This document shows, one piece after another, positions 17,589-59,056 of a stretch of DNA of 64,000 bases. Made by a program: the position numbers and the translations under genes. Within the stretch, counting starts at the first letter, position 1. Each line of letters opens with the position of its first letter. The notes beneath the pieces were generated by a model, which was given only the letters and a program-made list of their open reading frames with translations, was not told the origin of the DNA and searched no databases. The stretch covers positions 1 through 64,000 of the forward strand of contig NZ_RDQE01000006.1 in assembly GCF_003697845.1 (NCBI RefSeq), written 5' to 3'. This DNA comes from Halobellus captivus (lineage in GTDB: Archaea > Halobacteriota > Halobacteria > Halobacteriales > Haloferacaceae).

Positions 17589-17773
17589 GATGGATCTCAA
17601 AATCGTTACGTGAGTGGGATCCCGCGACGCGATCCCGCCGTTTCGGATCGAACTCGGGCCGGTGGCCACCTAAGGGCGTCGGTCACGGCGGTCGGCTCGG
17701 CGGGTGTGAACCCCTCGCGCGCGGATCGGCGAAAAGTAAGGTACAAGTACGGACGGGGACTGGTTTCGGGTGC

Positions 17774-17845
17774 GGGCTCGTAGATCAGCGGCAGATCGCT
17801 TCCTTCGCAAGGAAGAGGCCCGGGGTTCAAATCCCCGCGAGTCCA
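17774..17845 (+). tRNA. tRNA-Ala (CGC)
   Basis: 72-nt cloverleaf. Acceptor GGGCTCG/CGAGTCC contains the G3:U70 pair that marks alanine tRNAs. The anticodon loop is TTCGCAA with anticodon CGC, the T-arm is CGGGG-TTCAAAT-CCCCG and the discriminator is A. No CCA is encoded and no intron is seen. An AT-richer patch (AAAAGTAAGG) about 35 nt upstream is the likely promoter. The 3' end is the template for several partial copies found just downstream. Confidence 0.96.
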
Positions 17846-18041
17846 TGTTTTCGCGCCGCGAGCAATCTCGCGAGCGGCGCGACACTGTAACGAGCGGGGA
17901 TTTGAACCCTACCAGTCGCGCGCAGCGAGCGGAGCGAGCGAGCACGTCTGGTTTCGGTTCAAAATCCCCGCGAGTCCACTCACTTCGTTCGTTCACTCGC
18001 TTGGTCCCGTTCGCTCCGCTCACGGGACCCCCGCGAGTCCA
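17846..18041. repeat. Inverted and direct partial copies of the tRNA-Ala 3' end
   Basis: Right after the tRNA, TCGCGCCGC (17851-17859) pairs with GCGGCGCGA (17874-17882), and beyond it 17892-17910 carries the inverted T-arm (GCGGGGATTTGAACC). Direct copies follow: 17956-17978 repeats the T-arm and acceptor end with one extra A (GGTTCAAAATCCCCG then CGAGTCCA), and 18028-18041 repeats CCCCGCGAGTCCA. Between them, GTCCCGT/ACGGGAC (18004-18010 and 18022-18028) forms a stem around a TCGCTCCGCTC loop. The same layout follows the other tRNAs in this window. Confidence 0.85.
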
Positions 18042-18478
18042 TCCGGGTTTTACTCGACTCCTCAGGACCGAAGGGTCGTCTCTCGTCGGTTTCGGTTCAA
18101 CGTATCTATACACGATCCCGATCCCGTTGAGAGAGTTCACCGCGAATCCCGTCGCACTGATCCGTGGTGAAACGAACGGGACGCCCGGCTCGGGGTGGCG
18201 ATGGGGAACTTGGCGGGCGAGTCGTGGTTGAAGCTACTCACCCAGCTCGACGTCGATCGCGACCGCAACACGAGCGCGATCTCGTCCGGAGACGTTGATC
18301 GGTGGGCTCAGATCGACCCTGGGGGGTCGGCCGCGTGTTAGGGGTGTGGCTCACAGATTCTAAGGTACCGCCCCGTTTTGGCGAGAACGACTGTCTATCG
18401 TTAAAATAATATCACTCAACTCCGCTCAGAGTTAGCGATCACAGAAATGACTAAAATATAGTAGAGAATACAGAATAT
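18042..18478. other. Intergenic transition from GC-rich to AT-rich DNA
   Basis: No confident gene. Composition drops sharply from GC-rich to AT-rich near 18360. A possible 46-codon frame at 18201-18341 (+) encodes MGNLAGESWLKLLTQLDVDR and ends at TAG. It reads acidic and halophile-like but has no recognised match, and could be a remnant. A TATA-like ACTAAAATATA (18450-18460) serves the gene at 18479. Confidence 0.4.
18452..18460 (+). promoter_or_regulatory. TATA box for the DUF6414-like gene
   Basis: TAAAATATA is about 20-28 nt before the ATG at 18479. Because the whole area is AT-rich the match is less specific than elsewhere. Confidence 0.45.
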
Positions 18479-19321
18479 ATGCCCCAACTACGAGAATTCA
18501 TCTATCTTGATAATGAGCGATTGAATAACAATCTCTCATCACTTGGAAAAGGAATTCCTGCGGAGATTACCCACGCATCAGAGAATCAAACTGAAAAATC
18601 TGGAGAAGCAGGAGGGAACCTCTTGGGAATCCAGGCTGGCGGTCAGTATGGTGATCTCAGTCGAAAACAAGTAGAAACAAGGTTAGACATAACTGCTCCA
18701 TATCGATTTCAAGATTTACTCGATGAACTGGAAGACATAGATATTGACATATATACAAATCCAGATGTGAGACGGCTGAATCGGGGCGATGTAGTCAAAA
18801 TTGAAGCAGAAGTATATCCAATGTCAATTTTCAAAATTCAAATTGCTGTAGAGGCCTTTCAAACACTTGCTAACGATAACCTCAAGAATTCGTTACAAAC
18901 ACTAAATCAAGAAGCACCATATCAGGAACAAGAGATCAATGAGATGGAGGCATTATCTACGATGGTAAAGGAGTTCTTAGGATCTAAAATGCCTCTTCGA
19001 TTGGAGACCGACGAAGAAGTTTATTGTACATCATTAAAACAGAACGGAATGAGAACACCAGCAAGAAGAGCCTTTCTTGAGAACACAAATTTTACTGTTT
19101 TTGGTAGAGTAAATCGATGTATCCCAAGAAACGATAGGTGGGATCCAATTGATGCGATGAATATTGCTTCGCGTTTTCTTCCAGAAGGTGAAGATTCAGT
19201 TGAGAATTTCCGAGACGATGTTAGAAACGTGTCTAACAAATTGAATATTTCGATGGGAAATGAAGATTTCTTTGTAAAAGGACGCACTGCTGTGATCGAT
19301 CCTATTGCCGTATATTGGTGA
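18479..19321 (+). CDS. DUF6414-like protein on an AT-rich acquired segment
   Basis: 280 residues beginning MPQLREFIYLDNERLNNNLSS, which resembles the N-terminus of DUF6414 proteins (xFIYLDxxxLNSxLxxLxxG). A middle segment, VVKIEAEVYPMSIFKIQIAVE, and the C-terminal KGRTAVIDPIAVYW also fit that family as I remember it. Function unknown. There is no signal peptide or membrane span, so it is probably cytoplasmic. Composition is strikingly different from its neighbours: AT-rich, with A/T-ending codons such as AAA, AAT, GAT and ATA, and more Asn, Lys and Ile than the halophile norm. Together with the tRNA just upstream, this indicates horizontal acquisition. It stands alone, with a convergent frameshifted gene 9 nt beyond its stop. 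I infer a mobile-element cargo or defence role only from context. Confidence 0.7.
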   Translation: MPQLREFIYLDNERLNNNLSSLGKGIPAEITHASENQTEKSGEAGGNLLGIQAGGQYGDLSRKQVETRLDITAPYRFQDLLDELEDIDIDIYTNPDVRRLNRGDVVKIEAEVYPMSIFKIQIAVEAFQTLANDNLKNSLQTLNQEAPYQEQEINEMEALSTMVKEFLGSKMPLRLETDEEVYCTSLKQNGMRTPARRAFLENTNFTVFGRVNRCIPRNDRWDPIDAMNIASRFLPEGEDSVENFRDDVRNVSNKLNISMGNEDFFVKGRTAVIDPIAVYW

Positions 19322-20473: not shown

Positions 20474-20953
20474 CTATGCGAAGAGATCGGTATCGGTGTC
20501 GTACTGGAGATCGTTGACATCAAACGTACGATCTAAAAGGATCGAGTCGCTTGGGGTATGGATCAATCTAACACGAATTTCGCCGATAGCGGTGGTATCT
20601 CCACCGAAAGAGTCAGTTTCGACACTATCTCCGACAGATAGACGCTGATCAATCACGCCGTCAGAACTAGTGTCATTTCCAGTATCATCAACAATTACTC
20701 TAACCGTGTCTGACTCAAGAGAGTCACCACCGGTGTGCTCAATACTAACTGTGGCTGAGTTAGCAGCACTGTCTTCGTTAACATCGACACTTAATTGAGC
20801 CGTCGGCTGACTGTCTCCGAGCGAGTCCCCGAGCCCGAGCACGAACGTCCCGATGACGGCGGCCAGGATGACGGTAATAGCGACCATGAGTATGACCCCT
20901 ATAACAGGACTCACGGCGCGGTCGTCTGAGTTGAACAGGTTGCTTGGTTTCAT
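20474..20953 (-). CDS. Type IV pilin-like protein
   Basis: 159 residues. A class III signal (MKPSNLFNSDDRAVSPVIGV) is followed by a 20-residue hydrophobic helix. Haloarchaeal pilins are cleaved by the prepilin peptidase before AVSPVIG, after which the helix packs in the pilus core. The acidic ectodomain (about 50-159) is Ser/Thr/Asp-rich and beta-like. It would form an adhesion pilus subunit at the cell surface. GC content is visibly lower than in core genes, and the gene is alone, without a pilus assembly ATPase or membrane subunit. Such orphan pilins are common in haloarchaeal accessory regions. The transcript from the TATA box at 21048-21057 would have a leader of about 70 nt. Confidence 0.85.
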   Translation of the reverse strand: MKPSNLFNSDDRAVSPVIGVILMVAITVILAAVIGTFVLGLGDSLGDSQPTAQLSVDVNEDSAANSATVSIEHTGGDSLESDTVRVIVDDTGNDTSSDGVIDQRLSVGDSVETDSFGGDTTAIGEIRVRLIHTPSDSILLDRTFDVNDLQYDTDTDLFA

Positions 20954-55209: not shown

Positions 55210-55239
55210 GCCAGACACGGGTACGACAGGTTGCGACGC

Positions 55240-55312
55240 GCCCGGATGGTGTAGTGGCCCATCATACGACCCTGTCACGGTCGTGACGCGGGTTCAAATC
55301 CCGCTCCGGGCG
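55240..55312 (+). tRNA. tRNA-Asp (GTC), copy 1
   Basis: 73 nt. Acceptor GCCCGGA/TCCGGGC, anticodon loop CTGTCAC (anticodon GTC) on stem CGACC/GGTCG, T-arm GCGGG-TTCAAAT-CCCGC, discriminator G. No CCA encoded. Identical to the copy 30 nt downstream. Confidence 0.97.
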
Positions 55313-55342
55313 TCCCCTATTTCGGGGCTTTCGTCGCTGTCT

Positions 55343-55415
55343 GCCCGGATGGTGTAGTGGCCCATCATACGACCCTGTCACGGTCGTGACGCGGGTTCAA
55401 ATCCCGCTCCGGGCG
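55343..55415 (+). tRNA. tRNA-Asp (GTC), copy 2
   Basis: Identical 73-nt sequence to copy 1. The spacer of 30 nt contains TTTCGGGGCTTTCG and no clear promoter, so both tRNAs are probably cut from one precursor. Its 3' end is the source of the repeats that follow. Confidence 0.97.
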
Positions 55416-55674
55416 TTCCGTTGCGACCAACAAACGAGCGGTGAGCATCGCGAACCGCGAGTCCGGTCGCAACGGAACCACGACTGAAGGGATTCGAACC
55501 AGGGAGTGAAGCGAGCGACGCGAGCGGAACGAGTGAGGTTCAAATCCCGCTCCGGGCGCTTTCTCGGAACGCAACGCGAACGAGGAGCGCAAGCGACGAG
55601 TGAGTCCGGCGTCGACGAATCGTTCAGAGGGACTTGATCCGCGGACGATCGAACGACGAGTGAGTCCTCGACCA
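55415..55674. repeat. Inverted and direct copies of the tRNA-Asp 3' end
   Basis: GTTCCGTTGCGACC (55415-55428), starting at the last tRNA base, pairs perfectly with GGTCGCAACGGAAC (55465-55478). Just beyond, 55489-55502 carries an inverted T-arm-like GGGATTCGAACC. A direct 22-nt copy of the tRNA end (GGTTCAAATCCCGC then TCCGGGCG) is at 55537-55558. The intervening sequence is made of GAGTGAAGCGAGCGACG-like palindromic words. No gene is seen up to 55674. Confidence 0.85.
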
Positions 55675-58983: not shown

Positions 58984-59056
58984 GTCCTGGTAGGGTAGTG
59001 GACTATCCTCTTGGCTTGCGGAGCCAGGGACCGGAGTTCAAATCTCCGTCAGGACG
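58984..59056 (+). tRNA. tRNA-Arg (GCG)
   Basis: 73 nt. Acceptor GTCCTGG/TCAGGAC (G:U at the last pair), D-arm GGGT/ATCC, anticodon stem TTGGC/GCCAG around loop TTGCGGA (anticodon GCG), T-arm CGGAG-TTCAAAT-CTCCG, discriminator G. No encoded CCA. Reads CGC codons, which are frequent in this GC-rich DNA. Confidence 0.95.

Follow-up and report, generated by a model that had tools for sequence, protein, structure and literature searches.

Palindromic units that repeat the 3′ end of the neighbouring tRNA form arrays behind tRNA genes of Halobacteria

Behind the tRNA-Ala(CGC) gene of Halobellus captivus we found two short palindromic units, each terminating in a copy of the 3′ end of the tRNA, which together are inserted exactly between the tRNA gene and the native chromosomal flank. 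The core of the longer unit recurs behind many different tRNA genes across the class. Our best explanation, to which we give about an even chance, is that the two units form an array belonging to a class-wide family of site-specifically inserted, tRNA-anchored palindromic cassettes.

Results

Architecture of the array

The window analysed here is a stretch of 64,000 nucleotides from the 3.59-Mb genome (G000) of H. captivus. The features of the tRNA-Ala(CGC) region, some of them described by comparison with the relative G002, which has an empty site, are as follows.

17774-17845, plus strand: tRNA-Ala(CGC) gene, called by ARAGORN and Rfam; the array is anchored at its 3′ end, GGTTCAAATCCCCGCGAGTCCA
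17846-17978, plus strand: unit A, 133 bp, made up of a linker, hairpin H1 and long palindrome H2, with a tRNA 3′-end copy at its end; absent from G002
17851-17882, plus strand: palindrome H1 (TCGCGCCGC..GCGGCGCGA); H1-type palindromes occur in related units
17894-17971, plus strand: long palindrome H2; single-strand fold with z of about -5; covariation
17894-17909, minus strand: inverted T-arm copy, the 5′ arm of H2; 16 of 16 positions complementary to 17823-17838
17910-17955, plus strand: core of unit A (TACCAGTCGCGCGCAGCGA..GAGCACGTCTGG..), conserved and present behind tRNA genes throughout the class
17956-17978, plus strand: first direct copy of the tRNA 3′ end, the 3′ arm of H2, with one extra A
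17979-18041, plus strand: unit B, 63 bp, with 13 nt of the tRNA 3′ end at its end; one to four copies in relatives
17996-18037, plus strand: palindrome of unit B (CTCGC..GGTCCC / GGGACC..GCGAG), read from the sequence
18029-18041, plus strand: second direct copy of the tRNA 3′ end, 13 nt, CCCCGCGAGTCCA, an exact repeat
18042-18071, plus strand: native chromosomal flank; at the empty site of G002 it comes immediately after the tRNA

An earlier note on this DNA had described an inverted T-arm and two direct 3′-end copies behind the tRNA, and these were confirmed as exact repeats. The best matches between the tRNA and the 300 nt downstream of it were 17 nt in direct orientation (17962-17978, extended to 23 nt at 17956-17978 with one additional A) and 16 nt in inverted orientation, whereas in 2000 dinucleotide-preserving shuffles the maximum was 13 for direct and 13 for inverted matches; a chance origin of these matches was thus rejected. 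The same note had found the inverted copy unexpected. The copy is indeed present, but it is no oddity of this locus, being one arm of a class-wide palindromic unit that stands behind many tRNAs. What had been missed is that the inverted copy and the first direct copy pair up as the arms of a single long palindrome (17894-17971), that there are two further palindromes, at 17851-17882 and 17996-18037, and that the whole 196 bp (17846-18041) is missing in a relative with an empty site.

Unit A contains two palindromes and unit B one, and in the latter the outer arms hold the acceptor-end copy and its inverse. Neither unit contains a gene, 63-133 bp being too short for any. Within 17600-18600, Rfam gave no match at the gathering score except the tRNA itself.

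The stems of the units covary strongly, and the palindrome is constrained. In an alignment of H2 from 58 sequences behind 13 tRNA types, 97.5% of cells were paired and 10 of the 24 pairs had changed on both sides; the covariation score was 0.233, as against 0.111 for shuffled alignments and at most 0.069 when the partners were slid. RNAalifold, run without a supplied structure, recovered the same stem. Some columns hold fixed T.T and C.A mismatches, adjoining the invariant AGTCGCGC / GCACGTCT. As DNA, the plus and minus strands of H2 fold equally well.

In the apical loop of H2 (for example 17920-17945), GCGAGCGAAGCGAGC covaries (GC/AT/CG at the closing pair), and many copies carry GCGAAGC, a very stable DNA mini-hairpin. 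Similar loops are also found in other haloarchaeal intergenic hairpins.

Empty site and array variation in relatives

In G002 (locus L010) the tRNA is directly followed by TCTGAATTTTACTCGACTCCTCAGGACCG, which in the window comes after the last copy, at 18042, and the two genomes are collinear on both sides of the empty site. The region is, then, a two-unit array inserted exactly between the tRNA 3′ end and the native flank, in support of the insertion at the tRNA 3′ end that the earlier note had proposed. That note had also stated that an empty site in a close relative, lacking the inverted copy, would speak against its interpretation. Such a site exists; it counts against an essential processing signal, since units that are absent at the G002 site cannot be essential there, and in favour of insertion. 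Recombination between the repeats, with loss of the units, would also yield an empty site, so the polarity of gain and loss is not proven.

The number and order of units differ between species. In Halorubrum genomes the same tRNA is followed by A-B, by B only, by four identical B, by B-A-B, by A only, or by a large integrative element. The four identical B units stand in tandem (L253), and L212 holds two units. Each unit fits exactly into the junction of the native flank with the tRNA 3′ end or with a preceding unit, and the arms of the long palindrome consist of the local T-arm and its inverse.

The AT-rich gene downstream

The array had been described as lying directly before an AT-rich foreign gene. 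Such a gene is present (18479-19321, plus strand, 280 aa, DUF6414, Pfam E 2.6e-41), in a segment of about 1.5 kb that G002 lacks, but the conserved native flank (18042-18071) intervenes, and the window holds no distal att copy beyond the gene; we therefore regard its arrival as a separate event. Between the array and this gene, 18251-18369 matches a hypothetical gene of Halorubrum pleomorphic virus 9 (73.8% over about 120 nt). Farther on, an archaeal type IV pilin (Pilin_N) is encoded at 20474-20953 on the minus strand, in DNA that matches G002 downstream of the empty site.

A class-wide family behind tRNA genes

The core of unit A was found in 314 of 391 Halobacteria genomes (72 of 86 genera) and in 47 of the 52 Halorubrum genomes. 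A scan of 84,980 prokaryote genomes with the exact core pattern returned 57 stretches, every one assigned to haloarchaea by its record title. Among 130 distinct copies gathered by core similarity, 118 lie directly behind a tRNA gene on the same strand, although a few of the tRNA calls near repeated ends may be spurious. The tRNAs preceding the copies are of types Ala, Gly, Asp, Ser, Leu, Arg, Val, Lys, Glu, Pro and Phe. Several of the remaining copies lie at a contig edge, or behind either a fragment of a tRNA or a tRNA-end copy that an integrative element had left. The comparison of tRNA-downstream regions that the earlier note had suggested thus reveals copies behind many tRNAs across the class, and not a peculiarity of one locus.

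Named genomes gave a similar picture: 46 of 60 exact core matches lie within 400 nt of a tRNA and one further match within 900 nt, while 13 are without a full upstream tRNA; at several of these there is part of a tRNA, a copy of a tRNA end or the edge of the contig. No reversed core was found behind a tRNA gene among the 60 exact matches. A pattern independent of the core (inverted T-loop, 30-58 nt, direct T-loop) occurred in 32 of 53 Halobacteria versus 0 of 242 other genomes of the phylum, and its reversed control gave no match.

Because the copies were collected by core similarity, the conservation of the core is partly ascertained. The tRNA-end copies, which were not ascertained in this way, are conserved at 0.90-0.99, and the 40 nt behind them at 0.67-0.88.

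In a survey of all tRNAs of the H. captivus genome, based on fetched loci, 14 of 44 tRNA loci repeat their own 3′ end in the 400 nt that follow, at a level exceeding the 99% control. For one of these 14, the second gene of a tandem tRNA-Asp pair accounts for the match, and the sole upstream match is that same tandem. Within the window, a tandem tRNA-Asp pair (55239-55416 and 55490-55547) is followed by an inverted/direct T-loop palindrome with a different type of core (AGGGAGTGAAGCGAGCG..GGAACGAGTGA), and tRNA-Arg(GCG) (58984-59056) has two near-copies of its 3′ end downstream, an array of the same kind. Elsewhere, a stretch with no tRNA on it (L250; G017:C66:7000-13000) holds six copies of CCCCGCGAGTCCA in less than 500 bp, in an assembly made uncertain by single N bases.

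Searches of the open-licence full-text literature and of Rfam turned up no account of units copying the tRNA beside them, and the family is apparently undescribed.

Unit ends vary with the local tRNA

The match between the direct arm and the local tRNA has a median length of 22 nt, compared with a mean of 8.3 for other tRNAs. As the T-loop is nearly universal, the last 12-13 nt are the informative part of this arm. Variants of the T-loop are informative too: in unambiguous cases, the local type was present in 104 of 105 direct arms and 88 of 96 inverted arms.

H1 is common to units behind tRNA-Asp and tRNA-Ser (84-94% identity among the pairs listed), whereas their tRNA-specific ends differ, so units must have moved, or swapped parts, from one tRNA locus to another. 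The nearest relative of a core, however, stands at the same tRNA in another genome in 48% of cases versus 16% at random, so that inheritance looks mostly local and moves between tRNAs rare. This comparison speaks against spread between tRNAs within a genome, even though the shared H1 shows that moves or exchanges have taken place.

Integrative elements and the tRNA-end copies

In relatives, elements encoding a tyrosine integrase (PF00589) are bounded by CCCCGCGAGTCCA, with the PF00589 genes adjoining the distal CCCCGCGAGTCCA; the element of L244 also encodes a DUF1424 rep protein. The search for an integrase by its att core, which the earlier note had advised, was therefore productive, CCCCGCGAGTCCA being the att core of these elements, and its view of the site as an integration hotspot is supported by elements at tRNA-Ala(CGC) in several relatives.

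The homologous ends of one element type begin immediately after the last base of the tRNA in three genomes (G018, G054, G011) and immediately after a unit-B copy in two others (G043, G003). For a second type, the start lies no more than about 20 bases from the tRNA in G015, G010 and G008, and equally close to a unit-B copy in G012. Judging by these junctions, unit copies seem to be used as attachment sites; alternatively, the element could have entered at the tRNA first and unit B been inserted between them later.

An exact 16-mer search of viral contigs did not find the unit-A core, its 16-mer matches falling in unrelated sequence with no tRNA or att context; nor was the core found in phages, where matches cover the low-complexity loop only. 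Plasmids gave a single weak match. Thus, no free form of the core was seen, and a viral or plasmid origin of unit A was rejected.

Discussion

The explanation we prefer, a class-wide family of inserted, tRNA-anchored cassettes, suggests the following mechanism. Units would be inserted by site-specific recombination at an attachment site formed by the tRNA 3′ end; the palindrome, when single-stranded, would rebuild this site as a duplex, and the tyrosine integrase of resident elements could act on the folded palindrome in trans. Recombination between the 13-22 nt repeats would lengthen and shorten the arrays, and these repeats would then double as extra attachment sites for integrative elements. 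We consider the insertion part of this mechanism likely, and the folded-att part, drawn by analogy with integrons, possible. Against the cassette reading count that no enzyme for the units was identified, that they contain no gene, that the core was not seen in a free form, and that its inheritance looks mostly local. In its most far-reaching form, which we offer only tentatively, the proposal is of an integron-like tRNA system, in which tyrosine integrases would recombine folded hairpin cassettes into tRNA 3′ ends, the cassette ends would adopt the sequence of the tRNA entered, and tRNA genes would become extendable att arrays.

Integron attC arrays consist of tandem units with a palindromic site, complementary outer arms, a covarying stem and junctions that repeat the target, and integrons have reportedly been found in archaea. 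The units described here share the tandem arrangement, the palindromic end with complementary outer arms, the covarying stem and the target-repeating junctions, and they combine an imperfect palindrome and conserved pairing with variable sequence. They differ in having no cassette genes and in ends that vary with the neighbouring tRNA; moreover, on reading 17846-18041, a GTTRRRY crossover is absent from the unit junctions, which read GAGTCCA. Casposons integrate at tRNA 3′ ends with a target duplication of 14-15 bp. Their target and duplication length are similar and tandem insertions are possible, but our units, by reading, have no fixed terminal inverted repeats.

It is well established that archaeal tyrosine integrases use att sites located at tRNA 3′ ends, for example the 13-14 nt sites of SNJ2 type (PMC8371274). 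The likeness lies in the tRNA 3′-end target, the 13-nt core and the copies apparently used by PF00589-integrase elements, and a direct tRNA 3′-end repeat does border the insert. The units differ in being 63-133 bp palindromes of the local T-arm and its inverse, stacked in arrays and without an integrase: no integrase gene lies within the units, and the only integrases found were those of larger, separate elements in other genomes. Haloarchaeal PATEs and SMRs are small palindromic repeats, with repeat-mediated deletion seen in Haloquadratum and no target duplication (PMC3119063). Our units are likewise short, non-coding and palindromic, with the dynamics of short-repeat recombination, but they stand behind tRNA genes and each repeats 13-23 nt of the local tRNA end. 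The units thus resemble integron arrays and tRNA att scars, while lacking, for each, a defining feature that was tested.

A role in RNA would explain some of the same observations. A hairpin in the read-through transcript might sequester the extra tRNA 3′ end or guide 3′ processing, with selection keeping the inverted T-arm matched. All tRNA-associated copies do lie behind the tRNA on the same strand, the stem covaries strongly, and in the inner pairs of H2, read on the tRNA strand, hand-summed G.T pairs outnumber A.C mismatches 45 to 17. (An apparent A.C excess in an initial wobble tally was rejected, being largely due to one fixed C.A mismatch.) However, there is almost no G.T, and no comparable surplus over A.C, in H1 (6 versus 4 A.C) or in unit B (0 versus 8), unlike most conserved RNA stems; no Rfam family other than the tRNA is present, and the same tRNA in G002 is without units. 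Of the earlier proposal that the T-arm could pair with its inverted copy in RNA, the conserved pairing stands, but the wobble counts do not point consistently to selection on RNA, and G002 lacks the units at this site. We therefore think a function of this kind unlikely.

We hold it equally unlikely that the units are a passive by-product, that is, fragments of past att duplications maintained as palindromes by template switching, kept like the tRNA by gene conversion, and amplified and lost through short-repeat recombination, with neither a function nor a dedicated recombinase. The tandem identical units (four B in L253; the two units in L212) are consistent with such a history, as are the deletions between repeats documented in Haloquadratum (PMC3119063) and the inner-stem changes, which are nearly always paired with few intermediates. 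Arguing against it are a core that is nearly invariant across the class, albeit in copies chosen by similarity, and confined to tRNA genes, and tRNA-end copies better conserved than the linkers.

An ordinary scar, formed of attL/attR remnants from repeated insertion and loss of one integrative element, is suggested by the CCCCGCGAGTCCA-bounded elements at tRNA-Ala(CGC) in several relatives. We rate it as quite improbable, because the same core stands behind many different tRNAs and because, at most inspected loci, element ends abut att copies without unit A or B as their own terminus (less clear are L241 and L242, with unit A at a distance of 1.9 kb from the tRNA). The repeat structure alone might raise the suspicion of assembly duplications, which the earlier note had allowed for, but we dismiss an assembly artefact as having next to no probability, since the same units recur in dozens of independent genomes, including the one-contig G050 and G062 and named complete chromosomes.

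What emerges is a family that is present in most sampled Halobacteria, is tied to tRNA genes and copies the sequence of the local tRNA; under either reading, as cassettes or as RNA-acting elements, its units can confuse the annotation of tRNAs and att sites. If the units act as RNA, they would add a new layer to the biology of tRNA 3′ ends. If they are inserted att-like cassettes, they would help to explain the frequent insertion at haloarchaeal tRNA genes by providing several landing pads per tRNA, and would offer a tractable case of a mobile palindrome that switches its target while the tRNA is kept intact.
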